From an uncultured Chlorobiaceae bacterium (GTDB lineage Bacteria > Bacteroidota > Chlorobiia > Chlorobiales > Chlorobiaceae), in assembly GCA_903895195.1 (NCBI GenBank), contig CAITSZ010000027.1:62001-126000 (forward strand): a DNA stretch of 64,000 nucleotides, in the 5' to 3' direction. Within the stretch, counting starts at the first letter, position 1; every line of letters starts with the position of its first letter. The notes under the pieces are model-generated. The model had not been told where the DNA came from and did not search any database. It worked only from the letters and a program-made list of their open reading frames with translations. The position numbers and the translations under genes are program-made. This document shows positions 34,447-62,395 of the stretch, one piece after another.

Positions 34447-35244
34447 TCAACTTTGCGTATAGGTGTGGACACTGTTCTGTGCTGATGGGAGGTAGTTAAC
34501 TCCGAACCAGCAGACAAGAAGAACAACAAACGCAAGAGCCAGGTACCATTGCAGTTTACTCCTGTCTATCTTGTAACGGAATGCATGAAGGTAGCCCAGA
34601 TAGGCCAGCCAGGATAGAAACGCCCATGTTTCCTTTGGATCCCATGTCCAATAGTGGCCCCACGCCTCTTTTGCCCAAAGAGCGCCGAATATCAAGCCAA
34701 AGCTTAAAAAAACAAAACCAAGCAGTGCAAGAAAGTGTGAGACTGATTCCCCTGTACTGTTTTCTTTCTTTCTCACTTGGAGATAGACATTGTGCAGAGC
34801 TGTAACCGATGATGCCGCCAGTAAAACATAGCCGACAAGATAGACAACGACATGTGGAATAAACCATGGACTTTGCAGGGCAGGCATAAGAGTTTTGTCG
34901 AAGACCTCTGGATGAAGCATGTTTATGCTGAGAAAAAATGTAGCAAGAGCCATGCAGTAGTATTTCAGCCATCCTATTTTCCAGCGGTACTCAACAAGAA
35001 ATCCAACAAGGGGAATGAGTGCGGCATACCATAGTCTGGTCTCTCCAAGAGTTCTGAGAGGTGGACGGTCGAGAGCTGACCAGTAAAAAGCAATAAACCC
35101 GGTCATGATCAGAGTGCCGGCAATAGAGAGAAGAAATGCAGGGAGCTTAAGTGCCGGAGTTCGATTTGCCAAAAGACTCAGCAAAGAGCCGATTGCCCAA
35201 CACACGATAGCCAGTTCTGCAGCAGTATTAAAATTCATTATCAT
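34447..35244 (-). CDS. ccsA: Cytochrome c biogenesis protein CcsA
   Basis: A 265-residue polytopic membrane protein of the system II haem lyase. The periplasmic tryptophan-rich motif appears as WGHYWTWDPKETWAFLSWL, which binds haem during attachment to CxxCH. With ResB/Ccs1, encoded just upstream with a 4-base overlap (35241-35244), it delivers haem across the membrane and ligates it to apocytochrome c. The neighbouring cluster encodes at least ten c-type haem sites, which makes a dedicated role likely but not proven. Confidence 0.92.
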   Translation of the reverse strand: MIMNFNTAAELAIVCWAIGSLLSLLANRTPALKLPAFLLSIAGTLIMTGFIAFYWSALDRPPLRTLGETRLWYAALIPLVGFLVEYRWKIGWLKYYCMALATFFLSINMLHPEVFDKTLMPALQSPWFIPHVVVYLVGYVLLAASSVTALHNVYLQVRKKENSTGESVSHFLALLGFVFLSFGLIFGALWAKEAWGHYWTWDPKETWAFLSWLAYLGYLHAFRYKIDRSKLQWYLALAFVVLLVCWFGVNYLPSAQNSVHTYTQS

Positions 35245-36479
35245 TTTACAACCTCTGTGCGTTTAATGCCATTCCAGAAAAACAGAATGTTTCCTGCCAT
35301 TATCATAAAAAAACCGAGATAAACAGCCGGCAGCCATGGATCATGAATCATTTCAATCAAGCTTAGTTTAGACCAGCGTCCGGCTTTTTCGTCATAGCCC
35401 ATCTGGTAGAGCTTCCAGCCCATAAAGCTGACAGGATGGTTAACCTCAAGATTTGCAACTTTTTCATGGCCTTTTTCATCCTGAATAGTGACAGCGGAGC
35501 GGAATGATTTAGGCGTACCAGGCATCATGATAAGATAGAATCCGTCCAGTTGAGCGGCATCAGGTTTAAGCATAGGGCTTCCAGTGCTGATCCAGGCATC
35601 TCTCTGTGACGAAGGTGTAATGATTCTGACTTTTGCAAAGGGAATCCCTGTTTTTCGATCTGCGGATTGGGGCACTCCATCTTTCCCTGGAAGTGCATAG
35701 GGCAGATAGTCGAGCACAAGAACCTCAATTCCCTGCCAGGATGCTGTCGTTCCTTTTCGGACCTCTAAAATGGCTTGTGCCTTGTTCATCATCAGCTTAT
35801 CGTTATGCGGGTCATAGAGCAGTAACTGTGGCGGATACTCTTCAAGGGAAAAGTCATGAAGAAAAATAGACAACGGAAGCTGCTGCGGGGTATCGCTTTC
35901 CATGGTATAACCAAGGTTGTTAGCTTTTCCAACATTAATAGGCACAACAAGCCGTTGAAGATCGGAACTGCCGAAAATTGCGCATGAAAGGGCAATCCAG
36001 AAACCGGCATGAAAAAGGATAAACTGGAGATTCTGCAGTTTAAACGGTATCAGCTTCCACGAAAGCGAAATACCGAGGTTGGCAAGGAAGAGGAGAACGG
36101 TCACGGCAAAAGGCCAGCTTGAAAAAATCTGGTTCAACCCAAGCAATGTTGGAAGTGATTCCTTCGCAGCAGATTGCTGAGGTATAATACCGCCGATCAG
36201 CGAAAGAACAGCTATCGCAAGAATAAGGCAAAGTCCAAGGGGGATGCCTCCAAACCATTTAACAGCGGGAGTGTTTCTGAAAGCCAGTCCGGTACTTATA
36301 ACCAGAACAGCTAAAAATAAGAGTGCTATAGCGTTGTACGGCAAGTGCGGCATAGCAATACCTTGGCCTGAAGCCGCAGCTTGAATTACAAAGCCCGCAA
36401 TGACAGAAACAGCAGTAAAAAGAGCAGATTCCCTGAACTCCCAGGGTGCCTGAAACCAGCGACGCCGGACAACAACCAT
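35241..36479 (-). CDS. resB: Cytochrome c biogenesis protein ResB/Ccs1
   Basis: A 412-residue membrane protein with several N-terminal helices, a periplasmic beta-rich region (about residues 190-370) and a C-terminal helix (YLGFFMIMAGNILFFW). The HAGFWIALS segment and MGWKLYQMGYD near the C-terminus are typical of ResB. It pairs with CcsA in system II haem attachment. It diverges from the porin-cytochrome gene across a 963-base gene-free region, so both could share regulation. Confidence 0.88.
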   Translation of the reverse strand: MVVVRRRWFQAPWEFRESALFTAVSVIAGFVIQAAASGQGIAMPHLPYNAIALLFLAVLVISTGLAFRNTPAVKWFGGIPLGLCLILAIAVLSLIGGIIPQQSAAKESLPTLLGLNQIFSSWPFAVTVLLFLANLGISLSWKLIPFKLQNLQFILFHAGFWIALSCAIFGSSDLQRLVVPINVGKANNLGYTMESDTPQQLPLSIFLHDFSLEEYPPQLLLYDPHNDKLMMNKAQAILEVRKGTTASWQGIEVLVLDYLPYALPGKDGVPQSADRKTGIPFAKVRIITPSSQRDAWISTGSPMLKPDAAQLDGFYLIMMPGTPKSFRSAVTIQDEKGHEKVANLEVNHPVSFMGWKLYQMGYDEKAGRWSKLSLIEMIHDPWLPAVYLGFFMIMAGNILFFWNGIKRTEVVK

Positions 36480-37442: not shown

Positions 37443-38696
37443 ATGAGAAAGTCGACATTTGCCAAGATTGCAACACTCAGTATGGTACCGGCTCTGTTCT
37501 GGAGTCAGGATAGTTTTGCTGTGCCTGCGTTTGCAAGAAAGTATCAGACATCATGTTATACCTGCCATTCCGGTTTCCCGAACAGGAATGCGTTTGGTGA
37601 AGCCTTCAAGAATAACGGCTATCGCTGGCCGGGTGGAGAAGATGAGGATCACGCCAAGCAGGAGCAGACAAAAATGGGCGCCAATGGATGGAAGCAGACC
37701 TTCCCTGACTCTCCTTGGCCTTCAGACATCCCTGGCTTTGCTCCATTTGCAGTGTATGTCACAGGGCCTATTGTGAGATATTCTGATGAGGTGAAAACTA
37801 AAGCAGGAGCGGTCACAACAGCGCAACAGCTTACTTGGCAGGGACCTATTAATGCTCGTATTCTCTATGGTGGCACAATCGGTGAAACTGTCGGAATTGT
37901 TGGTGCATTTGAGAATTTAGGGACGAATGTATCTCCTACAAGTAATCTTCGTGCCACATGGGCTTTTGCTCCCGGAGTCAACATCAGTTTTGGAACAAGC
38001 GCATTCAGTGCCTTTGGCGGAGTAGCTTCTCCAATATCTGTCTTTACCAGCGTATTTCCTGCATCCGGAACGGGTCCTGAGTTCAATTACGCGACAGGCA
38101 AGGAAGGCGGATTCAATTTTATTGCTGGACTTGCAAGCGCCGCTTCTTCAACTGGACTACTTGATAACACTAAAAAGCTTGATGATACCAGATATCTTCG
38201 GGCAAAATATAAGTTTTTTGGTGCTGGTCTTCTGAGTGGAGCTAGTGGTACTTACGGTAATGAGTATGTCGGTCTTGATAACAGTTTGGCTATCGGCGCA
38301 AGTCTTGTCAGTGCAAGGGATGCTGTTCTGGCTTCAAATTATGCAGGCGAGACATTGGTTTACGGCGTTGATCTTGCAGGAAACGTCGGCAGCTTTACAG
38401 GCGGTGTCGCTTTCAGTAAGGACCAGGATCTAAAACTCAACAATTACGCGGTAGATGCCGGATATTATCTTTATCCTTGGCTTTTAGCGAGGGTTAGATA
38501 TGCGAATTTGGGCAGGGCTGGCGTCGACCAGGAAATCCCGACACTCACTCCATCATTAACAGCATGGCTCCGTGCAAATATTTTTGTTCAGGCATCATAC
38601 GTCTACAATACCAAAAATATTGCACCTGCAACAGCAAATACAACCGGTGTTAACAATGCGAACTCATTAAGTCTGAATGCTGGTTATGCGTTTTAA
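37443..38696 (+). CDS. Fused monohaem c-type cytochrome and outer-membrane beta-barrel (Cyc2-like architecture)
   Basis: A 417-residue protein. A signal peptide ends at about Ala26 (DSFA), then a short haem region with one CxxCH (CYTCH, 38-42) inside FARKYQTSCYTCHSGFPNRN, and from about residue 100 to the end an alternating-strand, Gly/Ala/Thr-rich chain that looks like an outer-membrane barrel and ends in Phe, the usual barrel-assembly signal. Cytochrome-porin fusions of this form, such as Cyc2, carry electrons from outside the cell, for example from Fe(II). Whether this is true Cyc2 or another haem-porin group cannot be decided by eye. A terminator follows at 38734-38786, so the gene may be transcribed apart from the Rieske genes downstream. 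Confidence 0.82.
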   Translation: MRKSTFAKIATLSMVPALFWSQDSFAVPAFARKYQTSCYTCHSGFPNRNAFGEAFKNNGYRWPGGEDEDHAKQEQTKMGANGWKQTFPDSPWPSDIPGFAPFAVYVTGPIVRYSDEVKTKAGAVTTAQQLTWQGPINARILYGGTIGETVGIVGAFENLGTNVSPTSNLRATWAFAPGVNISFGTSAFSAFGGVASPISVFTSVFPASGTGPEFNYATGKEGGFNFIAGLASAASSTGLLDNTKKLDDTRYLRAKYKFFGAGLLSGASGTYGNEYVGLDNSLAIGASLVSARDAVLASNYAGETLVYGVDLAGNVGSFTGGVAFSKDQDLKLNNYAVDAGYYLYPWLLARVRYANLGRAGVDQEIPTLTPSLTAWLRANIFVQASYVYNTKNIAPATANTTGVNNANSLSLNAGYAF

Positions 38697-39021: not shown

Positions 39022-39594
39022 ATGCAGGATGATAGAGAGCTCGTTACAGAGCAAAAGGAAGAAATCATAAACCGAGAAAATTCTGAAGGCGGTCAGGCGG
39101 AGTCCAGCGCAAGAAGGAAATTTCTGACCAGGGTAGGCTGGGGAAGTCTTGCAGGGTTTATAGCGCTGAATTCAGCAGCATTTTTAAGATTTCTTTACCC
39201 ACGAGTGCTGTTTGAACCGCCATCGCAATTTAAGGTCGGACTTCCGGCCGACTACCCTCCAGGGGCAGTTAACTCCCAATATCAAAGGGAATACAGTACC
39301 TGGATTATCAGACTGCAGGATGGTCGTTTTTTTGCTATGGAGACCAAATGCACCCATCTTGGTTGTACGCCGAGCTGGATGGAGGCTCAGAAGAAATTTA
39401 AATGCCCCTGCCATGGCAGCGGCTATTACATAACCGGGTTGAATTTTGAAGGTCCCGCACCCCGGCCTATGGATCGCTTTAAAATAAGTATAGCTGAGGA
39501 TGGTCAGTTGCTTGTTGACAAGACGATCAAGTATCCGGGTGTTCCAGGCAAGGAGTCTAATGAGGTTTACCCTGAGAGTTTGTTGAAAGTGTGA
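39022..39594 (+). CDS. Rieske [2Fe-2S] protein of a bc-type complex
   Basis: A 190-residue protein with a twin-arginine-like SARRKFL start to a single membrane helix (about residues 34-58), then a periplasmic Rieske domain. Cluster ligands are Cys110-His112 (CTHLGC) and Cys128-His131 (CPCHGSGY), with Cys115/Cys130 as the disulfide pair. Ser133 and Tyr135, residues that raise the cluster potential, are both present. It would pass electrons from quinol oxidation to a cytochrome c. Next on the strand are a ferredoxin and the two cytochrome b halves, so this is the first gene of the complex operon. Confidence 0.93.
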   Translation: MQDDRELVTEQKEEIINRENSEGGQAESSARRKFLTRVGWGSLAGFIALNSAAFLRFLYPRVLFEPPSQFKVGLPADYPPGAVNSQYQREYSTWIIRLQDGRFFAMETKCTHLGCTPSWMEAQKKFKCPCHGSGYYITGLNFEGPAPRPMDRFKISIAEDGQLLVDKTIKYPGVPGKESNEVYPESLLKV

Positions 39595-39618: not shown

Positions 39619-39957
39619 ATGAGCATGGGTAGTGAGGAAAATATAACCGCGCTTCAGGAAGACGCCCCGTTGAAGAGAGTTTCCGGAGCACGCAAGCGCG
39701 CTGCGGCCAGGGTGATCTCAGAACTTTGTACGGGGTGCAGGATTTGCGTTCAGACCTGTCCTTCAGACTGTATAACAATAGTCGAGTCAGACCTGAATTT
39801 TACTGGGATTGCACAAGTTGATGAGGGCTGTACGGGCTGTAATATATGTGCCATTGATTGTCCATGGACCGGTGTGGAGATGCTGAATCCGGACGGTTCG
39901 CGCAAGAATGAAGCCGAATATGAGAGGCAGTTAAAGAGGCTGCGCGGGTATCAGTAA
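39619..39957 (+). CDS. 2x[4Fe-4S] ferredoxin-type subunit
   Basis: A 112-residue protein with two CxxCxxCxxxCP sites: CTGCRICVQTCP (Cys37, 40, 43, 47) and CTGCNICAIDCP (Cys71, 74, 77, 81), with a basic N-terminal segment and charged C-terminal tail. No signal peptide, so it would be cytoplasmic or peripheral on the inner face. Placed between the Rieske and cytochrome b genes, it may be a subunit that connects the low-potential side of the complex to cytoplasmic ferredoxin pools. Such a subunit is absent from ordinary bc1 or b6f complexes. Confidence 0.92.
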   Translation: MSMGSEENITALQEDAPLKRVSGARKRAAARVISELCTGCRICVQTCPSDCITIVESDLNFTGIAQVDEGCTGCNICAIDCPWTGVEMLNPDGSRKNEAEYERQLKRLRGYQ

Positions 39958-39987: not shown

Positions 39988-40761
39988 ATGAAAAGCCTAC
40001 CAGAGATAACTGACAAGGTTAAGAAGAATCTGATATGGAAATCCGTATTCAGACGAGATTACCGTAATACTGTAAGAGACCGGGCACAAGCTGTTTTCGG
40101 TAACGTATTTCTTCATCTGCACCCGGTGCAGGTACGTGAAAGCGCGGTCAAACTTCGCTTTACCTGGGGAATGGGAGGTATTACCTTATTTGCCTTTATC
40201 ATTCTCGTAATTACTGGTGTTGTTTTGATGTTCTATTACCATCCGTCAATTGACCAGGCCTATACGGATATCAAGGATCTGGAGTTTCAGGTGCCATTTG
40301 GCGTTATTCTCCGTAATCTCCATCGATGGGGAGCGCACTTCATGGTCATTGTTGTGATGATTCATATGTTCCGTGTCTTTATGACAGGGTCTTATAAAGC
40401 ACCACGACAGTTCAACTGGGGTGTTGGAGTTATTCTGCTTGTCTTGACATTCCTTTTGAGTTTTACCGGTTACCTCACACCTTGGGACCAGCTTGGATTC
40501 TGGGCGATCACCGTTGGAACCAATATGGGTGCAGCGACACCATTGCTTGGATATCAGGGACCATTCAGCGAGTATCTGCATATAACACCATACAACGATG
40601 TGCGTTTTGCGCTTCTTGGAGGTGCGCAAGTCGGCGGTAATGCGCTCTTAAGATCATATATATGGCATTGCGTTGCTATTCCTCTTGTCGCCACCATTTT
40701 GATGATGGTACATTTCTGGCGTGTCAGAAAAGATGGCGGAATTTCAAAACCTCAAAAATAA
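39988..40761 (+). CDS. Cytochrome b, N-terminal (b6-like) half
   Basis: A 257-residue membrane protein with four helices of the cytochrome b6 type. The four haem ligands are His112 (HRWGAH), His126 (IHMFRVF), His227 (WHCVAIP) and His242 ([11 protein letters not shown]); the spacing of 14 and 15 is b6-like. The cysteine that binds haem ci in b6 (in FYCLGGIT) aligns here with Gly61 in TWGMGGIT, so haem ci is not expected in that form. The loop [15 protein letters not shown] is conserved. A ~50-residue basic N-terminal extension precedes the first helix. It is one half of a split cytochrome b; the other half is next. Confidence 0.93.
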
Positions 40762-40781: not shown

Positions 40782-41666
40782 ATGAACCCTTTTATTGAAA
40801 TCATTACCCAGCCAGATAATATTGCCATTGTGATCATGGTCATTATGGTCTCCTTTTATATGGTATGGGCTTTTCAGCAGGCCTTTCAAAATGACAGGCT
40901 TTTAGCTGCAGGACTTCCTGTTGACGGTGAAAACGACAGGTTTATCGACACATTCAAACCACTTGTGCGCATTGAGCTTCTTATCGCACTTGTCGTCATG
41001 GTAGGTCTAACGGTTTGGTCTATATTGGTTGATGCTCCGCTTGAAGAGATAGCAAACCCGACCTTAACACCAAACCCGGCAAAGGCCCCATGGTATTTCT
41101 TGGGTCTTCAGGAGCTCCTGGTGTACTTTGATCCATGGCTCGCCGGTGTCGTACTGCCGTCACTGATTGTTGTGGGTCTTCTTGCTATTCCCTATATCGA
41201 TATAAATCCCAAGGGAAATGGCTATTACACGTTTGCAGAGAGAAAGTGGTCTATCATTATTTTTTCCTTTGGATTTTTTGTCCTCTGGCTTCTTTTGATT
41301 GTCATCGGTGTGTTTTTTAGAGGACCGGGTTGGCTCTGGTATTGGCCTTGGCAGGAGTGGGATCATTCCAGAGTTGTTTTCGAGCCTACCAGGGATTTGA
41401 CTGCCCTCATAGGTATTGAATCGCGATCTCTTCCTGGCTTTATTATCGGAGCGATTGTTGTCGGCTCCTATATGGTTGGAGGCATGATTGCTCCCTACCT
41501 GTACTGGAAGAAGAATAATCCTGAATTGCTCACTCAGCTGGGGATGATACGGTATGTGACCATCATATTTTTGTTTATAACGATGATGTCTATACCGATT
41601 AAAATGGTTCTCAGGTTGGTATTTCTGATTAAATATGTATGGATAACCCCCTGGTTTAGCGTTTAG
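40782..41666 (+). CDS. Cytochrome b, C-terminal (subunit IV-like) half
   Basis: A 294-residue membrane protein beginning 20 bases after the b6-like half. It has about six to seven hydrophobic segments, more than the three of plant-type subunit IV. The Qo-site PEWY motif of bc complexes appears here as APWY (residues 102-105, in NPAKAPWYFLGLQELL), so the usual Glu is replaced by Pro. The following LVYFDPWLAG and YIDINPKGNGYYTF segments I recall from menaquinol-oxidising cytochrome b genes in other phyla. It should form the quinol site with the b6-like half and Rieske protein. Confidence 0.85.
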   Translation: MNPFIEIITQPDNIAIVIMVIMVSFYMVWAFQQAFQNDRLLAAGLPVDGENDRFIDTFKPLVRIELLIALVVMVGLTVWSILVDAPLEEIANPTLTPNPAKAPWYFLGLQELLVYFDPWLAGVVLPSLIVVGLLAIPYIDINPKGNGYYTFAERKWSIIIFSFGFFVLWLLLIVIGVFFRGPGWLWYWPWQEWDHSRVVFEPTRDLTALIGIESRSLPGFIIGAIVVGSYMVGGMIAPYLYWKKNNPELLTQLGMIRYVTIIFLFITMMSIPIKMVLRLVFLIKYVWITPWFSV

Positions 41667-41731
41667 TGCTGGTCAATAAGCTCTGGTATACGGAAACAAG
41701 GTCATTCTAAAAGCCCAAAAAACTCTTGAAC

Positions 41732-44347
41732 ATGGCGAATGAGAATAAAAACAGTTCATCCTTAAGTCTCTACATCTTTGTTTTTTTCAGTGTAGTATTG
41801 CTCGTTCTATCTTTATGGGTAGTATGGGATGATGAATTTGGCCTGCGGCCATGGAAAAAATACCAGGCGGATTATAAGACCATGAAGCACGATAAGCTCG
41901 AGCAAGATTATCGTCATGCGGTCGTTGAATTCCAGCGATCTGGTGGTCACAAAAAGCTGGCTGAGCTTGAAGCCAAGCTTGAAAAAGCTGAAGCAGGGTT
42001 TAAAAGCAATGAGACCCAGGAAAAGTTTACAAAGCTTAACAGTCAGCTTGAAGCAGCCCATGAAGCGCTTGCGAAAAGTCAGAAAGAGCTTCGCGATTTA
42101 CGCGGTCAGTTTCTTGAAACTGAGTACTACTTTACAAAAACTCAACAGCCTGACTATAAGTCGAAAATGGATGTGCTTCAGCGCAGCATTGATAGTGTTG
42201 CATTACGTGTAGCGGCGCAACAAAAAATTGAGGACTCCATCAAGGGGTCATTATCGTCGCTTACAGCTGGAACTGCAGCTATACGAGCTCAAATTGCGAC
42301 AATGAAAAATGGTCTGGAAGAGAAAAAAGAGAAGATTGCCAATAATGAAAAAGTCCCTATTGAGATCAAGCAGATTCATATAGCTGATGTTGACAAAGCT
42401 GATCGATGCCAGTCGTGCCATATTGGTATCGATGGAAAAAATCAGGTTTCAGGGAAGCAGCCGTTTACAAGACATCCCGCCAGTTTCGTCTATCTCGATC
42501 ATCATGATCCAGCTAAGTTCGGGTGTACCTTTTGTCATAGAGGACAGGGTCGTGCGACAACGTCAGCCGAAAAGGCTCATGGTAATGTTAAGCATTGGGA
42601 TGAGCCAATGCTTCAGGGTGATATGACCCAGACATCGTGCTTGAACTGCCATGGTGATATCAAGGGGCTTCGTGGTGCAGAAAAGATTATTAAAAGTACC
42701 GAGCTTATCAAGAAGTACGGTTGTTACAGTTGTCACAAAATTCCCGGCTATGAGACTGTTGGTGATGTAGGACCGCTTCTTACACAGGTCGGCACAAAGG
42801 TCAATTATTCTTGGGCTGTAAGCTGGCTGCTTGATCCGAAGAAATACTTTGCTACAGCAAGGATGCCGAAGTTCTATTTTACACAGGATCAGGCTGAGGC
42901 TATTGCTGACTATCTCTTCAGTATGTCAGGGACCACCCGCCATGATGCTGATAATACGAAGAACAAGCCTGACGCGAAACTTATAGAGCAGGGTAAAGCT
43001 TTGTGGGCCCAGTCACGCTGCAATCTCTGCCATATCACAGGCGGCAGGGGAGGAAACAATGTGAAGGTATATGCTCCTGATTTGAGTAAAGTGGGCAGTA
43101 AGGTAAACAAGGAGTGGATGTTCAAATGGATCAAAAATCCAAATACATATTTCCCTGGCACAAAGATGCCAAGGTTCCGCTTTACCGATGAGGAGGTGAA
43201 TGGCCTTGTTGCATACATAACCTCAGAGTATCAGGATGAGGATGCCGAGTATAAATATGCTCAGCCTGTAGAGATCAAGGCAGCCTCAATTGCAAAAGGA
43301 AAGGACCTGATACAGAAATATGGTTGCTATGGATGCCATAAACTTCAGGGAATGGAGGATATGGTTCAGGTTGCTCCATCTCTAAGGAAGCAAGGAGTTA
43401 CCTTCCTTAGAAATAATGAGATGCGTGAAAAAATCGGAATGGAGCTCTCCTCTATTGGAAGTAAACCGGTTGACATGCTTGATTTCGGAAAGCTGAAGAA
43501 ATCTATTCCTAATGACCGTCTGAGCTATATCAAGCAGAAACTTAGAGATCCAAGAGGCTACCGCCTTGGATTACGGATGCCTAATTTCCGTCTGGCCGAG
43601 TCGGAGATAAATGAATTGTCAGCTGTTCTGTATGGTTTTACAGATGCAAGCGTGCCTACACGTTTTCTTGTCCCTTCCCGTCAGGAATTGGACAGAATGG
43701 CCGGTGTTCCTTCGTATAAATTTACAGGCGACTTTGCCAAGGTCATTGCTGATGTGAAATGCACCAACTGTCATGCTATTCGTGGTATCGGAGCTGATTA
43801 TGCTCCTGATATCTCTATTGCAGGCAGCAAACTGCAGGAGTCATGGATTCGCAACTTCCTTGCAAATCCAGATGTTATCCGCCCACTTCTACAGCAGATG
43901 CCTAAATTCGGTCTCTCATCAGGAAAGCCTCAGGCTAAGGTTACCATGCCAAGGTTTAATCTTGGACAGCAGAAGGTTGAGGATACGAATAAGACTGATG
44001 TTGATGTTGTGATTAACTTTTTCCAACAGGAGTTGTTGTCAAGCGATATTCCTAAGGAAATCCCTAAAATCAACACTATTGCCATGCCGGAACAGATTGC
44101 CAAGGGCAAACAACTCTATGATCTAAAGGGTTGCAAGGCTTGTCATCAGATAGGAACGGAAGGTGGCGCCCTTGGACCTAATTTGACGAATGTCGGTAAC
44201 CGCCTGACTCAAGGATTTATTTTCAAGCATCTTGAAAATGCCCGGAAATTCAAGGCAGATATCGTTGAGCCTAATTATGGCTTCACAGAGACGGAAAGAA
44301 TTTACTTAACAAACTTTTTGATGACCCTGAAACTGAACGCTAAGTGA
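41732..44347 (+). CDS. Membrane-anchored octahaem c-type cytochrome with coiled-coil stalk
   Basis: An 871-residue protein with one N-terminal membrane helix (about residues 10-30, no cleavage site evident), a Lys/Glu/Leu-rich coiled-coil region of about 180 residues, and a C-terminal part with eight CxxCH sites at Cys226, 265, 303, 331, 430, 532, 677 and 801. Between them lie repeated cytochrome c-like units ending in phrases such as RMPKFYFTQDQ and KMPRFRFTDEE, where a Met could be the distal ligand. It is well suited to take electrons from the Rieske protein and carry them across the periplasm. The start is the ATG at 41732. The next gene overlaps its stop by one base. Confidence 0.92.
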   Translation: MANENKNSSSLSLYIFVFFSVVLLVLSLWVVWDDEFGLRPWKKYQADYKTMKHDKLEQDYRHAVVEFQRSGGHKKLAELEAKLEKAEAGFKSNETQEKFTKLNSQLEAAHEALAKSQKELRDLRGQFLETEYYFTKTQQPDYKSKMDVLQRSIDSVALRVAAQQKIEDSIKGSLSSLTAGTAAIRAQIATMKNGLEEKKEKIANNEKVPIEIKQIHIADVDKADRCQSCHIGIDGKNQVSGKQPFTRHPASFVYLDHHDPAKFGCTFCHRGQGRATTSAEKAHGNVKHWDEPMLQGDMTQTSCLNCHGDIKGLRGAEKIIKSTELIKKYGCYSCHKIPGYETVGDVGPLLTQVGTKVNYSWAVSWLLDPKKYFATARMPKFYFTQDQAEAIADYLFSMSGTTRHDADNTKNKPDAKLIEQGKALWAQSRCNLCHITGGRGGNNVKVYAPDLSKVGSKVNKEWMFKWIKNPNTYFPGTKMPRFRFTDEEVNGLVAYITSEYQDEDAEYKYAQPVEIKAASIAKGKDLIQKYGCYGCHKLQGMEDMVQVAPSLRKQGVTFLRNNEMREKIGMELSSIGSKPVDMLDFGKLKKSIPNDRLSYIKQKLRDPRGYRLGLRMPNFRLAESEINELSAVLYGFTDASVPTRFLVPSRQELDRMAGVPSYKFTGDFAKVIADVKCTNCHAIRGIGADYAPDISIAGSKLQESWIRNFLANPDVIRPLLQQMPKFGLSSGKPQAKVTMPRFNLGQQKVEDTNKTDVDVVINFFQQELLSSDIPKEIPKINTIAMPEQIAKGKQLYDLKGCKACHQIGTEGGALGPNLTNVGNRLTQGFIFKHLENARKFKADIVEPNYGFTETERIYLTNFLMTLKLNAK

Positions 44348-44793
44348 TGCAAAAAACCTTAAAAATCAGGAAGATCGCTCTGCTCACCGCACTTTCAGTG
44401 CTTGTGATAGCCGGTTGTGGCAAGAAACAAGGCAAAGAAGGGAAAGCTGATCAGAAAAATCCAGCCGTTGCAGTTGATTCTGCAGCGGTTGCTGGAAAGA
44501 AAATTCCATATGCCTTAAAGGAAGGTAAGCGCCTTTTTTCACACTATTGTGCTGTATGTCACGGGGAAACCGGTGATGGAAGCGGACAGTATTATGGTTT
44601 GACTCCTTCGCCAGCTAATTTTACTGACAAGGCGTTTATGAAAACCTTGCCGGACGAAAAACTCTTTAAGGCGATCAACGAAGGATCGGCTTCTGTTGGT
44701 AAGTCAAATATGTGTCCTCCATGGGGTAAATCTTTTCATAGTGAGGAAACAGAGTTTATCGTCGCTTATATCAGAACCCTTACAGGCAGCTGA
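44347..44793 (+). CDS. Monohaem cytochrome c lipoprotein
   Basis: A 148-residue protein with a lipobox (LVIAGC) after a hydrophobic leader, a Lys-rich linker, and one cytochrome c domain with CAVCHGETGDG and a C-terminal Met (SNMCPPWG) as likely distal ligand. Its ATG overlaps the stop of the octahaem gene by one base (TGATG), so the two are translated together. It would be a membrane-tethered electron carrier between the octahaem protein and a periplasmic or outer-membrane partner. Confidence 0.92.
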   Translation: MQKTLKIRKIALLTALSVLVIAGCGKKQGKEGKADQKNPAVAVDSAAVAGKKIPYALKEGKRLFSHYCAVCHGETGDGSGQYYGLTPSPANFTDKAFMKTLPDEKLFKAINEGSASVGKSNMCPPWGKSFHSEETEFIVAYIRTLTGS

Positions 44794-44878
44794 ACGTTAC
44801 CTGAAGTTTCTATGTTATAAATTTCGATTTTAAGTGGATTATTTATTTTACAACCTAAAATGTATGGAGCAGAAAACT

Positions 44879-45475
44879 ATGAACTCTACAAGCAAATTTT
44901 TGAAAACCGCACTCTTGGTGACAGGTTTCGGATTTATGGCCTCTAATGCTTTTTGCGGTGGGACTATAACCGGCACAGTCGATGCAAGCAATCCAAAGTA
45001 CAAAGGAGATGCCGTCGTTTATCTGGTAGGCGTTAAAGGCCCTGTTGTTACTAAGCAGGCTTCCGTTGATCAGAAAAGCCTTGTTTTTGTTCCGCATGTA
45101 ACAGCTGTGCCTGTTGGATCAACAGTTGACTTCAAGAACAATGACAAGGTCAACCATAATATTTTTTCAGCTTCAGCGGCTAAAAAATTCAACCTCGGCA
45201 CATATAATCCGGGCATGTCTAAACCGGTGACATTTGATAAGCCAGGTGCTGTTAACTTACTTTGCAATGTTCACTCTGAAATGTCCGCATGGGTTGTTGT
45301 AACTGAAAATCAGTATGCAGCAGTTTCCGAACATGATGGCAAGTTCACTATCAGCAATGTTCCTGCAGGAACTTACAAGATCACTGCTTGGAGCGAAAAA
45401 CTAAAAGCACAGGAAGGATCTGTGACCGTTGCTGATGGAAAAACAGCGACTGTAGTTGTCAAACTGGCAAAATAA
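44879..45475 (+). CDS. Cupredoxin-like periplasmic protein with carboxypeptidase-regulatory-like domain
   Basis: A 198-residue protein with a signal peptide, an N-terminal cupredoxin-type domain (about residues 25-130) and a C-terminal beta domain (TISNVPAGTYKITAWSEK). The four type 1 copper ligands are visible in order: His in VNHNIFS, then Cys, His and Met in LLCNVHSEM. It resembles the blue-copper-like proteins annotated as methylamine utilisation relatives. Position after the cytochrome lipoprotein suggests a terminal electron carrier of the complex. The ATG at 44879 (GGAG upstream) is preferred over 44834/44864. A strong terminator follows. Confidence 0.85.
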   Translation: MNSTSKFLKTALLVTGFGFMASNAFCGGTITGTVDASNPKYKGDAVVYLVGVKGPVVTKQASVDQKSLVFVPHVTAVPVGSTVDFKNNDKVNHNIFSASAAKKFNLGTYNPGMSKPVTFDKPGAVNLLCNVHSEMSAWVVVTENQYAAVSEHDGKFTISNVPAGTYKITAWSEKLKAQEGSVTVADGKTATVVVKLAK

Positions 45476-45545: not shown

Positions 45546-45941
45546 CTCTGCCAGATCACCCATTGAAAACCGCAGTTTATTCTTTGGGTGAAGAAAAAAA
45601 CGGTTAAAACCCACAAGTAGATATTTTTTTATTACCGCACAAATTTAAGCCTTTTTTAAGAGACTCTTAATGCTGGTTTAAGTTCATGTTCGGTACATTA
45701 GATCTGTAATAATGATTCTCCTCAGTGTAAAGGCGCTTTCTGCAGGCTCCTGATATACCCTGTGTTGTTATTGCTCGCTTGTGTTGAAATATTGACTACC
45801 GTAAAACTTCGCTCTGAAGTATTGAGGTGTAGTCAATTATTTTCCTCATGTGATGAGAAAAAGATGGCAGGGATTACTGCATTTATTTTTAAAAGTGTTT
45901 CGCTCAGGAATATTCGTTTTAACAACTATAACATTACAGCT
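45546..45941. promoter_or_regulatory. Gene-free region upstream of the thioredoxin gene
   Basis: About 400 bases without a convincing gene; the thioredoxin frame is open from 45762 but that extension is not protein-like. It contains the ATTGACTAC/GTAGTCAAT pair at 45790-45841 and a small ACTTC-GAAGT stem between its arms. Confidence 0.5.
45790..45841. promoter_or_regulatory. Inverted ATTGACTAC / GTAGTCAAT motif upstream of the thioredoxin operon
   Basis: ATATTGACTAC (45790-45800) and GTAGTCAATTA (45830-45840) form nine-base inverted arms 29 bases apart. The arm includes TTGACT, which could be a -35 hexamer. The same nine-base motif recurs at 47953-47982 before the repeat-protein gene. Confidence 0.5.
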
Positions 45942-46457
45942 ATGGAAGAGTTAAAAAGCAAAAAAATGAAGGTGTTACTCCTGTCATTCATTGTTTGTTT
46001 CAGCCTGACCGGAAATATATATGCTTTGGAGTCCGGGAGTAAAGCGCCTGATTTTGAATTGGCCGGTTCACAGGGAACAGTAAGGCTTTCAAGTACTGCC
46101 GGTTCTGTGGTCTATGTTGATTTCTGGGCATCATGGTGCGGCCCTTGCCAGCAGTCGTTTCCCTGGATGAATGCCATGCAGGAAAAATACAAGTCAAAAG
46201 GAGTTAAAATTATAGGGGTTAATCTTGATGGTAAAACAGAAGATGCAAAGAAATTTCTTGCACAAAACCCTGCTCTTTTTACTGTAGCGTTTGACTCAAA
46301 AGGTGAGACGCCTAAACTTTACGGTGTAAAGGGTATGCCTACCAGTTTTCTTGTTGGTCGCGATGGTAAAATCATATCTCAGCATTTAGGCTTTAAAGCG
46401 AGCGATAAGGATGTACTTGAAAAGCAAATCCAGAATGCATTGGAGGTAAAAAAATGA
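45942..46457 (+). CDS. TlpA-like thiol-disulfide oxidoreductase
   Basis: A 171-residue protein with a signal peptide and one thioredoxin-fold domain with the active site WASWCGPCQQ and the cis-Pro segment GMPTSFLV. Periplasmic reductants of this kind keep CxxCH cysteines reduced for haem attachment or serve other envelope proteins. It starts at 45942 (MEELKSKK) or at the ATG 45966. It overlaps the DUF4266 gene by 4 bases (46454-46457), so they are coupled. Confidence 0.9.
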   Translation: MEELKSKKMKVLLLSFIVCFSLTGNIYALESGSKAPDFELAGSQGTVRLSSTAGSVVYVDFWASWCGPCQQSFPWMNAMQEKYKSKGVKIIGVNLDGKTEDAKKFLAQNPALFTVAFDSKGETPKLYGVKGMPTSFLVGRDGKIISQHLGFKASDKDVLEKQIQNALEVKK

Positions 46458-46720: not shown

Positions 46721-47839
46721 ATGAAATCTATCACATACCCATCAACAAATGTTGTCGGAGCAGCTCTTTTTGCTGCAGCTATTGCATTGCCAGCATCTCA
46801 AACTGCTTTTGCTGAGGCTGTGCCTGAAAGCAGCATTGTCAGCTTTAAATACCTGAACTACCAGGATAGTCAGCCTGGGCAGGAGAGGGTTGGTGTCAAT
46901 GCGTATTCTATCATGGGAATGGTGCCAATTGCCGGGAAGTGGTCCATAAGCACGACGTACACGAATGATTCTGTTTCCGGTGCATCTCCGGATGCCCATT
47001 CTACTGTCGTTTCGGGTGCCTCCAAAATGACTGAAAACAGACAAGCTGTCGATTTAAGCGTTACCCGCTACCTTCCTAAAGGATCGGTGACTCTTGGAAG
47101 CAGTTATTCAACGGAGCACGATTACGTTTCAAAGAGTTATTCTGCGCAGGAGAGTATTACTACTGAGGATAAGAACACGACCTTCACCTTCGGCGGCAGC
47201 TATACTACCGATACTATCAACCCGACCATCGATAAAGCTTCTTTTTACGATAGGAAGACTTATTCAGGGATGATCGGTGTCACGCAGGTCTTGACAAAGG
47301 AGGATATCGTTCAGGTTAACCTGGGGTATGCCAGCGGTAAAGGCGATTATAACGACCATTACAAGTTATTTGATCTTCGGCCTGACAAGCGGGAAAGCAA
47401 AACATTCATGACCAGATGGAACCATCATTTTGACCGAAGAGATGGAACCGCAAGGTTATCCTATCGCTATTACACAGACTCATTCGGTATTAATGCACAT
47501 ACTTTTGGTATGGAGTATGTTCAGCCATTACCTCATGAATGGACGGTAACTCCATTGTTCAGATTTTACTCCCAAACTGCGGCAACCTTTTATCTGCCAA
47601 CATCTGATCCACTGGCAACGTTGCCTTCATATTATTCCCTGGATCAGCGCCTCTCAGCTTTTGGAGCAACATCCATTGGAGTCAAAGTTGAGAAGAAAAT
47701 TGGCAAAGAGTGGCTTGTTGATGCGAGATTCGAGAGTTATGAGCAGCGACCAGAGTGGAGCATATCCGGTGGTGGCGACAAGGGGCTTTTACCTTTCTAT
47801 GCCCGAAGTATTCAGGTGGGCTTGACGCGACACTTTTGA
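46721..47839 (+). CDS. DUF3570 outer-membrane beta-barrel protein
   Basis: A 372-residue protein with a signal peptide (cut near TAFA), amphipathic beta-strands throughout, and a C-terminal Phe (GLTRHF), consistent with an outer-membrane barrel. The SSIVSFKYLNYQDSQPGQERV opening and the WNHHFDRRDGTARLSYRYY core match DUF3570 (given here in pieces). No haem motif is present. It is the last gene of the thioredoxin-DUF4266 operon; a terminator follows at 47847-47871. Confidence 0.85.
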   Translation: MKSITYPSTNVVGAALFAAAIALPASQTAFAEAVPESSIVSFKYLNYQDSQPGQERVGVNAYSIMGMVPIAGKWSISTTYTNDSVSGASPDAHSTVVSGASKMTENRQAVDLSVTRYLPKGSVTLGSSYSTEHDYVSKSYSAQESITTEDKNTTFTFGGSYTTDTINPTIDKASFYDRKTYSGMIGVTQVLTKEDIVQVNLGYASGKGDYNDHYKLFDLRPDKRESKTFMTRWNHHFDRRDGTARLSYRYYTDSFGINAHTFGMEYVQPLPHEWTVTPLFRFYSQTAATFYLPTSDPLATLPSYYSLDQRLSAFGATSIGVKVEKKIGKEWLVDARFESYEQRPEWSISGGGDKGLLPFYARSIQVGLTRHF

Positions 47840-49334: not shown

Positions 49335-50225
49335 ATGGATAGTTTTCATTTTCGATTTGATGCCATGGGCAGTGGCTGTGAAGTTGTTCTTGTTGCTGAA
49401 TTTAAAAAAGATGCACAGTCAATTGCCGGATGTGCAATTGAAGAGGTTTCGAGAATTGAGCGCAAGTACTCCAGGTACAGGGCAGATAGCATTGTTTCAC
49501 GGATAAATGCTGCAGCTGGTCTTGACTGGGTAGAGTGTGATGAAGAGACTCTCTCTTTATTTCAGTATGCTGATACTTTGTTCGACAGCAGTGGTGGGCT
49601 TTTTGATATTACTGCAGGTGTTTTGCGCCAAGCATGGGATTTTGGTAGTGCGGTTGTTCCCGATAAAGGAGTATTGTCCAGGCAATGCAGCCTCATTAAT
49701 TGGCAAAGTGTTGAGCGTCAGGGTAATTCTGTTAGGTTGCCTCTTGCCTGCATGGAACTCGATTTTGGCGGATTCGGCAAAGAGTATGCTGCAGACAGGG
49801 CAGCGGCTATGATTCATGGTAAAGGTGTAAGGCATGGGTATGTCAACCTTGCAGGCGATATAAGAGTTGTTGGCCCCAAGCTTGACGAAAGTCCCTGGTT
49901 GATCGGGATTCAGGATCCTCGCAATAAAAGCAGAACGATTGCCTCTATCCCTCTCTTCACCGGAGCGTTGGCGACAAGTGGCGACTATGAGCGATTTATT
50001 GAAGTTGACGGTCATCGCTACTGTCATATTATTAATCCTCGATCAGGGTACCCGGTCACTTACTGGCGATCAGTAACGGTTGTGGCCCCTTTAGCTATTA
50101 CAGCAGGCAGTTACTCTACAATAGCAATGCTGAAAGAGGCTGATGGGTTGGCCTTTCTTGAAAACTCAGGAATGGGATACCTTGCTATTGACCAGCTTGG
50201 AGAGATGTATTACAAAAACACGTAA
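49335..50225 (+). CDS. apbE: FAD:protein FMN transferase (ApbE) with altered metal site
   Basis: A 296-residue ApbE-family protein: FDAMGSGCEV at the start, GLFDITAGVLRQAWDFG, LDFGGFGKEYAADRA, INPRSGYPVTYWRSVTVVA in order. ApbE transfers FMN to Ser/Thr of envelope flavoproteins. The C-terminal metal-binding motif normally reads ADA-ST; here it is TAGSYST with Gly258 where the Asp ligand is expected. No signal peptide is evident. No target with the classical [S/T]GA[S/T] motif was seen nearby. It lies between the repeat-protein gene and dsbD. Confidence 0.88.
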   Translation: MDSFHFRFDAMGSGCEVVLVAEFKKDAQSIAGCAIEEVSRIERKYSRYRADSIVSRINAAAGLDWVECDEETLSLFQYADTLFDSSGGLFDITAGVLRQAWDFGSAVVPDKGVLSRQCSLINWQSVERQGNSVRLPLACMELDFGGFGKEYAADRAAAMIHGKGVRHGYVNLAGDIRVVGPKLDESPWLIGIQDPRNKSRTIASIPLFTGALATSGDYERFIEVDGHRYCHIINPRSGYPVTYWRSVTVVAPLAITAGSYSTIAMLKEADGLAFLENSGMGYLAIDQLGEMYYKNT

Positions 50226-50268
50226 CGTGGTTGCTGAAGTACTTGATAACTTATTTTCTCACTGCTCT

Positions 50269-52119
50269 ATGAATCATAATATTTTTAAGCGTTACGCCGC
50301 ATTCATTGTTGTTTTAGTTGCGCTTCTCTTGAGGGTCACAGCTTGTTTTGCGACTGATTTTCTTGATCCTGAACAGGCGTTCAAAGTCAAGGCTGAACTG
50401 AACAGCGCTAAATCAGTTGTTGTGCATTGGGATATAGCCAAGGGCTATAAATTGTATCGCGACAGGGTGAAGGTTGGAGTTGAAAGCGGTAAAGCTCAGC
50501 TTCAGGCTCCTGTATTGCCAAAAAGCATCAAGGTTACTGATCCGACAAGCGGTGAAGCGCTTGAGATATACCATGACACCTTGACTCTAAACGTGCCTCT
50601 TGTGAAGACGGATGGCGTTTTTACGCTGAGTGTTGAGTACCAGGGGTGTGCAGAAGATGGTCTCTGTTATCCGCCTATGACCCGCTTCTTCAAGGTTGAT
50701 CCGAACAAGCCCGGAGTGCTCTCTCTGGCTGGCGAAAATGCGGGAGGCAGTGCTCCTGTTGCTGAGAAACCGACTTCTCAGGCGTCGCCAAAACAGGAGA
50801 ATTCGGCTGATAATGATCTTTCTCTTGCCAAAGCGACTCTTGCAGGTGGAAGTTTATGGAAAATCTCTCTTGCTTTTCTTGCCTTCGGGTTGCTGTTATC
50901 GTTTACACCTTGTGTTCTGCCGATGATTCCTATTCTTTCTTCTATCATTGTGGGAGAGGGTGATGTGAATAGACGCCGCAGTTTTTTAATGGCTGTCGCC
51001 TACTGCCTTGGTATGGCGTTGGTGTATACAAGCCTCGGTGTAGCCGCTGGACTCGCTGGTGAGGGACTTGCCGGTGCACTGCAAAAGCCATGGGTACTTG
51101 CACTGTTTGCTGTGCTGCTTGTAGTTCTTTCCCTGTCGATGTTTGATGTTTATCAGCTGCAAATGCCGGTTGCCATACAAAACAGACTCAACAACACCTC
51201 GCGAAATTTAAAGGGTGGACGTTTTGCAGGAGTCTTTATTATGGGTGCTTTGTCGGCACTTATTGTCGGGCCTTGCGTTGCCGCCCCACTTGCCGGGACA
51301 CTGGTGTATATAAGTCAGACCAAGGATGTTTTTCTCGGAGGCCTTGCACTTTTTTCGATGGCGATGGGAATGAGCGTTCCCCTGCTTCTTGTTGGTTTGT
51401 CAGCCGGAAGTCTTTTGCCAAAGGCCGGTGCGTGGATGATTGGGGTTAAATATGTTTTTGGGCTAATGTTGATTGCCGTTGCCATCTGGATGGTTTCGCC
51501 GGTTCTTCATGCTCAGGTTGTCATGCTTTTCTGGGGCGCTTATGCAATTCTTTGTGCTGTTTTTCTCAATGTGTTCAACGCTTCGAATGAAAAGCTTTCC
51601 ATAGCGCAACGGTTTGGAAAGACGTTTGGTATTGTTTTGTTGATGATCGGATTACTTGAGCTTGTCGGTGCAGCTTCAGGGGGAAATAATGCTCTGGAGC
51701 CACTTGAGCAATTCCATGCAGCATCTAAATCGTCCGATGGAACAGGAGAAAAGGAAAATCTGAATTTTATCCGTATCAGATCGGTAGCGGAACTTGATCG
51801 CGCGCTTCAATCAGCGAAAAAGCCTGTCATGCTTGATTTCTATGCGGATTGGTGCGTAGCATGCAAGGAGATGGATAGGTTTACCTTTCATGACAAGAAG
51901 GTTATGGAGCAGCTTAATGGATTGACGTTATTGCAGGTAGATGTTTCCGGCAATACCGAAGATGATCGTGTGTTAATGAAGCGGTTTGGCCTGTTCGGGC
52001 CTCCAGGAATTATCTTTTTTGATACTGACGGTAAGGAAATTCCTGAAAGCAGAATTGTCGGTATTCTTGATGCAAATGCTTTTGTTGATCATCTTGCCAA
52101 GTATTTCAAGGGACATTAA
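50269..52119 (+). CDS. dsbD: Thiol:disulfide interchange protein DsbD
   Basis: A 616-residue protein with the three DsbD parts: signal peptide and N-terminal periplasmic domain with Cys pair (YQGCAEDGLCYPP), a central eight-helix membrane domain with the Cys in TPCVLPMIP and GPCVAAPLAG, and a C-terminal thioredoxin domain with ADWCVACK. It moves reducing power from cytoplasmic thioredoxin to the periplasm. The TlpA-like protein and cytochrome maturation are likely clients. The ATG at 50269 is chosen over the long frame starting at 50143 that overlaps apbE. It follows apbE by 43 bases. Confidence 0.94.
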   Translation: MNHNIFKRYAAFIVVLVALLLRVTACFATDFLDPEQAFKVKAELNSAKSVVVHWDIAKGYKLYRDRVKVGVESGKAQLQAPVLPKSIKVTDPTSGEALEIYHDTLTLNVPLVKTDGVFTLSVEYQGCAEDGLCYPPMTRFFKVDPNKPGVLSLAGENAGGSAPVAEKPTSQASPKQENSADNDLSLAKATLAGGSLWKISLAFLAFGLLLSFTPCVLPMIPILSSIIVGEGDVNRRRSFLMAVAYCLGMALVYTSLGVAAGLAGEGLAGALQKPWVLALFAVLLVVLSLSMFDVYQLQMPVAIQNRLNNTSRNLKGGRFAGVFIMGALSALIVGPCVAAPLAGTLVYISQTKDVFLGGLALFSMAMGMSVPLLLVGLSAGSLLPKAGAWMIGVKYVFGLMLIAVAIWMVSPVLHAQVVMLFWGAYAILCAVFLNVFNASNEKLSIAQRFGKTFGIVLLMIGLLELVGAASGGNNALEPLEQFHAASKSSDGTGEKENLNFIRIRSVAELDRALQSAKKPVMLDFYADWCVACKEMDRFTFHDKKVMEQLNGLTLLQVDVSGNTEDDRVLMKRFGLFGPPGIIFFDTDGKEIPESRIVGILDANAFVDHLAKYFKGH

Positions 52120-60985: not shown

Positions 60986-62395
60986 TCACTGCAGCTTCTG
61001 AACTCTTTTTTTAAAGAAGGTCATATCGATACCAAGGCTTACCAAAAGGTTTACTATCACCGAGACGGTAATGTACCATGTCCATGCAAGTCCGAAAAAT
61101 TTTAGGACAAATACAATGCCCATACTGGCAACAAGACCAGTGCCAAGACTTGCCGGATGAAACGCCCTCTTGCTTTTGGATAACAGAAAAAGTCCCAGGA
61201 GCCCCCCATAAGTGAACGAAGCGATTTCAAGGCCTACCATGACAATTGCTTTGTTTCCGGCATCAAACATAAGCGCAATTATGATAAGCAGAATTGCCCA
61301 GATGAAGCTGATCAGTTTTGAAAGGCTGAGAGAAGCTTTTCCTCCAAGGATGTCGTTCACCGTTGAAGAGGCCAGGGCATTGATCGCAGAGCTATGTGTG
61401 GACATGGCGGCCGACAGAACTCCAGCAATTAATAATCCCTTCAATCCTGCAGGGAGATAGTGAACAATAAAAAAGGCAAATTCACGGTCTTTTTCCATTG
61501 AGGCGCCATGCATGAACACCGATATCAGTGAGCCTGCAAGAAGAAAAACTGAAAACTGGAAAAAAACAAAAAAGCCACTGCCAATCATGGCTTTTTTTGC
61601 AGATGCAAGATCTTTGCATCCGAGCACACGCTGAACCATCATGTAGTCCACTCCGTGAGAAGAAAGGGAGAGCAGGATGCCGCCGATAAAGGCGCTGAAA
61701 AAGGCAAGAGGGTTGGTGAAAATATGAGTGTCTTTATTGATAATGTTCAATTTCCCCGATTTTTCAAGCAACATGAGTATGTCAGGAAGACTCTTGTCTA
61801 TGCTATGAAAAAGAAAAACTATAGAGAGAATGCCACCCAGAAGGTAAAGAGAGAACTGAAAACTTTCCAGCCAGATCACTGCTTTAATACCACCCGAGAG
61901 CGTGTAGACAAGGGTGACCATCCCGATTATCATGATTGATAACGGAAGGGACCAACCGGTGACAACCTGAACAACAACACCAGCTGCAAGAAACCTGATG
62001 GCATCGCCAAGAGTTCTTGTTACCAGGAATACAATTGCTGCAAGTTTTTGCATGCCCGGTCCGAATCTGATGCCGATGACTTCATAAATAGAGCTGACGC
62101 CGTGTTTGAAATACATAGGCAAAAGCACGAAACTGACAAGTATCCTGCCTATAATGTATCCCATTGCAAGCTGGAGGAAGGTCCAGTCGCCCCTGTAGGC
62201 CAGACCGGGAACGCTGACAAATGTCAGTACCGAGGTTTCTGAAGCGACAATCGAGAGCATCGAAACAATCCATGGCATATTGTGGCCGCCGTGAAAATAG
62301 TCTCTGGAATTTTTGTTGCTTTTTCCGTGCCAAAGACCGAAAAGCGTATTGCCAATGAGAAACAGAATAATGATGGCAAGATCGATGGTCTGCAT
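60986..62395 (-). CDS. Sodium:solute symporter family protein
   Basis: A 469-residue membrane protein with about 13 helices and SSF signatures: HGGHNMPWIVSMLSIVASETS near the start (given in part), SLSSHGVDYMMVQRVLGCKD, and the GVLSAAMSTHSSAINALASS segment that holds sodium ligands. The cargo cannot be named; genes downstream of DUF1343/NamZ-type muramidases sometimes carry cell-wall sugar transporters, and DUF1343 is next upstream here. It is transcribed with or after the DUF1343 gene, with a hairpin at 62438-62466 between. Confidence 0.85.
   Translation of the reverse strand: MQTIDLAIIILFLIGNTLFGLWHGKSNKNSRDYFHGGHNMPWIVSMLSIVASETSVLTFVSVPGLAYRGDWTFLQLAMGYIIGRILVSFVLLPMYFKHGVSSIYEVIGIRFGPGMQKLAAIVFLVTRTLGDAIRFLAAGVVVQVVTGWSLPLSIMIIGMVTLVYTLSGGIKAVIWLESFQFSLYLLGGILSIVFLFHSIDKSLPDILMLLEKSGKLNIINKDTHIFTNPLAFFSAFIGGILLSLSSHGVDYMMVQRVLGCKDLASAKKAMIGSGFFVFFQFSVFLLAGSLISVFMHGASMEKDREFAFFIVHYLPAGLKGLLIAGVLSAAMSTHSSAINALASSTVNDILGGKASLSLSKLISFIWAILLIIIALMFDAGNKAIVMVGLEIASFTYGGLLGLFLLSKSKRAFHPASLGTGLVASMGIVFVLKFFGLAWTWYITVSVIVNLLVSLGIDMTFFKKRVQKLQ

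Follow-up and report, generated by a model that had tools for sequence, protein, structure and literature searches.

The window, the whole stretch of 64,000 nucleotides analysed here (positions 62,001 to 126,000 of contig CAITSZ010000027.1), belongs to a freshwater Chlorobiaceae bacterium and encodes an octahaem cytochrome c within the following genes:

37443–38696, forward strand: Cyc2-type fused cytochrome-porin, 417 aa, with the published Cyc2 motif (AVPAFARKY..CYTCH)
39022–39594, forward strand: Rieske [2Fe-2S] protein with a twin-arginine-like signal and CPCHGSGY (PF00355, E 9.5e-11)
39619–39957, forward strand: 2[4Fe-4S] ferredoxin, 112 aa, two cysteine quartets (PF14697/PF12838)
39988–40761, forward strand: cytochrome b, four-helix b6-like half, PetB/ExtP-like (PF00033, E 2e-40)
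40782–41666, forward strand: extended subunit-IV-like protein, 294 aa, 5-6 predicted TM helices (PF00032, E 8.6e-6; hydropathy peaks)
41732–44347, forward strand: octahaem cytochrome c, 871 aa, 8 CxxCH
44347–44793, forward strand: monohaem cytochrome c lipoprotein with an LVIAGC lipobox (PF13442, E 8e-10)
44834–45475, forward strand: cupredoxin-like periplasmic protein (PF00127, E 3e-6)
46721–47839, 49335–50225, 50143–52119 and 45762–46457: DUF3570 protein, ApbE-family protein, DsbD and TlpA-like thioredoxin, respectively

The upstream porin carries AXPXFAR[Q/K][T/Y] and CXXCH and is longer than 365 aa, in line with the published description of Cyc2 (both motifs and at least 365 aa; PMC8406198). 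The PXL motif 4 residues after CXXCH is not present in the window porin, which reads FPNRN at this place; FPKLN is found in the porin of a related locus outside Chlorobia (L059). The Rieske protein has the Ser/Tyr pair typical of high-potential Rieske proteins, and the stop codon of the octahaem gene overlaps the start codon of the monohaem cytochrome gene (TGATG). Adjoining the operon on the reverse strand (34447–36479) are genes for ResB and a CcsA-like cytochrome c assembly protein, a system II cytochrome c maturation pair beside the multihaem genes.

The octahaem reading frame starts at the ATG at 41732, with an in-frame TTG at 41726, and its product is divided as follows (all on the forward strand):

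41759–41824, forward strand: N-terminal membrane helix, uncleaved, residues 10-31 (hydropathy maximum 2.81 at 13-31)
41846–41866, forward strand: conserved RPWKKYQ motif, residues 39-45, directly past the membrane helix
41945–42340, forward strand: probable coiled-coil hairpin, with arm 72-137, turn 138-139 and arm 140-203 (AlphaFold2 helices, arm lengths, insert-free homologues)
42074–42172, forward strand: probable hairpin tip, residues 115-147, with a YY motif (column conservation)
42407–42661, forward strand: trihaem cytochrome c7-like module, haems 1-3 (PF14522, E 4e-8, best stretch 298-336)
42722–44344, forward strand: five class-I cytochrome c domains, haems 4-8 (family models and sequence)

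The eight CxxCH sites, at residues 226, 265, 303, 331, 430, 532, 677 and 801, bear out the haem count of a first-pass annotation of this DNA, since shuffled octahaem sequences contained a mean of 0.008 and a maximum of 1. That annotation had also proposed a non-cleaved anchor. Hydropathy analysis revealed residues 13-31 as the single strong hydrophobic segment, and R39, W41, K42 and Q45 of RPWKKYQ are invariant in a 26-sequence alignment; retention of both the helix and the motif in homologues argues against cleavage. H248, H258 and H283, candidate distal ligands of haems 1-3, are likewise invariant. Met-Pro motifs occur in the class-I domains at M378, M479, M616 and M723/M739, and in the haem 8 domain (residues 801-849; 44132–44278) the Met-Pro motif of haems 4-7 is replaced by VEPNY, as read from sequence only. 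This loss is found in Chlorobia and in the loci L058 and L059, all of which also carry the extra monohaem cytochrome gene; it is not seen in L060-L065.

The domain order, for which no family name had been recognised, is indeed covered as a whole by no Pfam or NCBIfam model, the matches being to single domains or pairs. The c7-like character of haems 1-3 and the class-I character of the later haems indicate a modular octahaem protein rather than one of the HAO type, and no HAO/ONR/OTR-type family is among the Pfam/NCBIfam matches. Matches to SoxX, CcoO/CcoP and ExtS span single domains or pairs only, and a high multi-domain SoxX score does not establish SoxX identity. A match of the coiled coil to the conjugation protein TraP (E 6e-4) lies far under the cut-off and was set aside as composition-driven. 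Among solved structures, the octahaem protein matched cytochrome c domains only, singly or in pairs, and weakly.

The first-pass annotation had treated the octahaem protein without linking it to the surrounding operon; the anchor, a coiled coil and the eight haems are borne out, and both the protein and its setting proved to be conserved. Close relatives were all found in Chlorobiaceae MAGs, including Chlorobium from lakes L227 and L304, plus one Chloroherpetonaceae genome, in the order Cyc2-type porin, Rieske, 2[4Fe-4S] ferredoxin, cytochrome b, subunit IV, octahaem, monohaem cytochrome and cupredoxin. The Rieske, ferredoxin, cytochrome b and subunit IV genes lie directly 5′ of the octahaem gene at all 27 Chlorobiaceae/Chloroherpetonaceae loci with sufficient contig (27/27), and where the flank is long enough a Cyc2-type porin nearly always precedes the Rieske gene. 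Some contigs stop short of the complete operon; L003 has its full flank and no Cyc2-type porin at the locus. Among 86 Chlorobiaceae species genomes examined, 34 contain the octahaem gene and all of these also encode a Cyc2-type porin, compared with 23 of the 52 genomes without the octahaem gene (Fisher 1e-8, genomes being counted without regard to kinship). The genome of the window itself has one octahaem copy, a separate canonical PetC-PetB and a cbb3-type oxidase.

Outside Chlorobia, where distribution beyond Bacteroidota was only sampled, the order Rieske, cytochrome b, subunit IV and octahaem recurs at nine other Bacteroidota loci, with inserted genes in L058. In L060, L061, L063 and L065 the cluster is followed by a protein in the cupredoxin position and by COX1, with COX3 also in L060, the arrangement expected of a complex III that delivers electrons to an oxidase. 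Three loci have no coiled coil, namely L059, L067 and, in Verrucomicrobia, L032; a Pyr_redox_2/Fer4_20 oxidoreductase lies beside the complex in L059 and L067 and a similar ORF in L032, so that the small ferredoxin accompanies mainly the form with the coiled coil.

Comparison with known systems revealed that the nearest described kind is represented by the Rieske/b complexes of Kuenenia stuttgartiensis (Kustd1480-1485 and Kuste4569-4574), which combine a b6-like cytochrome b with a subunit IV of five helices, a subunit carrying six or eight haems, and an NAD(P) oxidoreductase (PMC12954380). Shared with the window are adjacent genes for a Rieske protein, a four-helix b6-like cytochrome b and a subunit IV with extra TM helices, together with a c subunit that has a single TM helix and six or eight haems; Kustd1485 also has long α-helices, which wrap halfway round the complex in the published models, where the c haems lie 26-28 Å from the membrane cofactors (PMC12954380). 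In contrast, the window operon contains only the 112-aa 2[4Fe-4S] ferredoxin in place of the NAD(P) oxidoreductase, lacks the HAO-like octahaem of Kuenenia and includes a Cyc2-type porin. Haem cN is modelled in Kuenenia, whereas the b6f-type cysteine for covalent haem cN before GGIT was not found in the window cytochrome b, whose sole cysteine is Cys228. H43, R245, R247 and K248 of this cytochrome b are invariant in 29 of 29 sequences. His43 and Arg247 of Kuste4571, and His62, Arg266 and Lys267 of Kustd1481, have been proposed as ligands of a novel interface haem (PMC12954380), and His43, Arg247 and Lys248 of the window match these residues at a constant offset in the published numbering, not by alignment. 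An extra interface haem is possibly bound at His43.

The canonical Chlorobi PetC-PetB of the same genome shares the Rieske protein, cytochrome b and menaquinol oxidation, but its cytochrome b is fused, no adjoining c subunit gene was seen and PetB has no equivalent of His43. ExtP and ExtQ of the Ext selenite/tellurite reduction operon are the best NCBIfam matches for cytochrome b (ExtP, NF040969, E 3.5e-77, under the model's cut-off) and subunit IV, with a partial ExtS match for the octahaem protein; however, all lie under the curated cut-offs, and the ExtS model, of 262 positions, does not describe an octahaem subunit. Cytochromes b6f and bc1 have the same Rieske/cytochrome b core and a c-type output subunit, in their case the single-haem cytochrome f or c1, in whose place the window complex would have a subunit with eight haems and a probable coiled-coil hairpin.

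The region between the anchor and the haems had been described as a coiled coil of about 180 residues, forming a stalk that could place the haems far from the inner membrane. Heptad (3.5-residue) periodicity in residues 142-210 and 96-137 exceeded all or nearly all shuffles and was not seen in residues 38-72 relative to shuffles, so that a genuine heptad coiled coil is present but spans approximately residues 72-203. AlphaFold2 modelling of residues 1-239 (mean pLDDT 80.7) predicted not one continuous rod but a series of helices at about 40-69, 72-90, 93-137 and 140-203, with pLDDT of about 80-95 over the helices as a whole and about 84-96 over those of the coiled coil; the haem region of the full-length model is poor (mean pLDDT 57, pTM 0.30). 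The conserved break at 138-139 falls at the midpoint of the coiled coil, and the surrounding residues 115-147 are its most conserved part, with a mean column conservation of 0.82, whereas the arm segments on either side reach 0.58-0.60. The two arms are near-equal and of fixed length: RPW and YY lie 93 aa apart in the window protein and 84-88 aa apart in other families, and YY and KQ 79 and 85-87 aa, respectively. Insert-free multihaem homologues occupy the same operon position in L059, L032, L041 and L067, with the flanking motifs only about 26-32 residues apart. Taken together, the midpoint break, the arm lengths, the conserved tip and the insert-free homologues make an antiparallel hairpin the most likely fold, and we consider this topology probable, with residues 72-137 presumably packed against 140-203 of the same chain. 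Foldseek with the predicted model returned mainly SMC arms, colicin E3/E9, EmrA, the dynein stalk and PI3K iSH2, which we take to be antiparallel intramolecular hairpins; these matches are weak (E >= 0.01, TM-score at most 0.37 by query length). A tree of the haem regions is compatible with a single origin of the hairpin, on a weak branch (55/3).

A parallel two-chain coiled coil that holds the haem domains away from the inner membrane and spans the periplasm to Cyc2 would accommodate the heptad periodicity, the outer-membrane partner encoded in the operon and the dimeric nature of Rieske/b complexes, which would bring two chains near each other. The same region, however, has its break and its most conserved segment in the middle, between arms of matched length, and its structural matches are of the hairpin type; the Rieske head also has to reach the first haem, and among the insert-free homologues L059 has a Cyc2-type porin of its own. 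We thus regard such a stalk as quite improbable and the earlier proposal as not supported. With the antiparallel hairpin, the haems most likely begin beside the membrane without being lifted from it, and the tip probably docks on the Rieske/b complex or on a partner. Equally, the single anchor with a c7-like bis-His module at its base could be taken as the mark of a CymA/NrfH-like quinol dehydrogenase or periplasmic wire that stands alone and lies near the Rieske genes by chance, but the strict position right after subunit IV across families and phyla, and the lack of any NapC/NrfH family match in Pfam and NCBIfam, render this highly unlikely. The conserved place in the operon points instead to the octahaem protein as the likely membrane-anchored c subunit, the counterpart of cytochrome c1/f, of a second b6f-like Rieske/b complex. 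The association is read from gene order, and adjacency of the octahaem to Rieske and cytochrome b genes does not prove a physical complex.

The best reading of the assembly is a putative alternative menaquinol:cytochrome/cupredoxin oxidoreductase whose low-potential branch may interact with ferredoxin. Menaquinol would be oxidised at cytochrome b, the first electron passing from the Rieske cluster to the trihaem module near the membrane, then to the five class-I domains and presumably out to the monohaem lipoprotein and the cupredoxin. The second would follow the b haems, possibly via the interface haem at His43, to quinone or to the co-encoded ferredoxin. In Chlorobiaceae the periplasmic carriers could plausibly connect to the Cyc2-type porin as well; iron or humics outside the cell would thereby be linked to the reaction centre or the cbb3 oxidase or, were the flow reversed, to the quinone pool.

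As to direction, we infer that the COX-linked relatives speak for forward flow and the Cyc2 link for flow in reverse. In mainly reverse operation, Fe(II) or reduced humics would supply electrons that pass by way of Cyc2 and the octahaem protein to menaquinone and via ferredoxin to biosynthesis, the uphill transfer being driven by proton-motive force. The Cyc2-type porin within the operon, its co-occurrence with the octahaem gene across genomes and the porin of L059, which adjoins a related complex carrying an NAD(P) oxidoreductase, all speak for this; the ties of relatives to COX1/COX3 indicate forward flow, and a phototroph whose type I reaction centre already reduces ferredoxin has no obvious need of it, leaving predominantly reverse flow unlikely, if worth considering. 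A Trout Bog Chlorobium possesses three Cyc2 homologues, one of them strongly transcribed (PMC12285243), making extracellular electron uptake plausible. In a bolder and still less likely version, the Cyc2-linked, ferredoxin-bearing Rieske/b complex would give photoelectrotrophic Chlorobium a continuous route from outer to inner membrane. Fe(II) or humics would then deliver electrons to the quinone and ferredoxin pools through the eight haems and a haem b at the dimer interface, and the tip of the hairpin would dock on a partner in the periplasm or outer membrane.

The interest of the locus lies in its operon context rather than in a coiled coil that lifts haems. What is new is that the hairpin/ferredoxin version of the complex, elsewhere followed by cytochrome oxidase genes, is joined in Chlorobiaceae to a Cyc2-type iron oxidase, which together form a possible route between the outer membrane and the quinone pool. 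A search for literature joining Chlorobium, cyc2 and Rieske found only one review; the operon supplies concrete candidates for the steps by which electrons would pass from Cyc2 into the photosynthetic chain of green sulfur bacteria that oxidise iron, so that this path becomes testable. With it, the poorly understood group of Rieske/b complexes with multihaem subunits reaches beyond the anammox bacteria and offers a natural comparison between forms with a hairpin and ferredoxin and forms without a hairpin but with an NAD(P) oxidoreductase.

Several further observations were made on the window's genome and on related loci. The genome has five Cyc2-type porin matches in total (contigs C34, C12 and C37), and the one at C12:28187–29395 has a flavodoxin-like gene with a Rieske domain (L034) nearby. 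The set of DUF3570, ApbE-family, DsbD and TlpA-like thioredoxin genes 3′ of the operon recurs at several related loci, and in the Chloroherpetonaceae genome a multihaem protein with repeated CxxCH units is encoded downstream of the operon (L029, 11123–12301). Finally, L059 (133–8756), from a non-Chlorobia Bacteroidota, combines a Cyc2-type porin, a cupredoxin, an NAD(P) oxidoreductase, Rieske/b genes and a hairpin-free octahaem cytochrome, and is a candidate Fe(II)-to-NAD(P)H unit.
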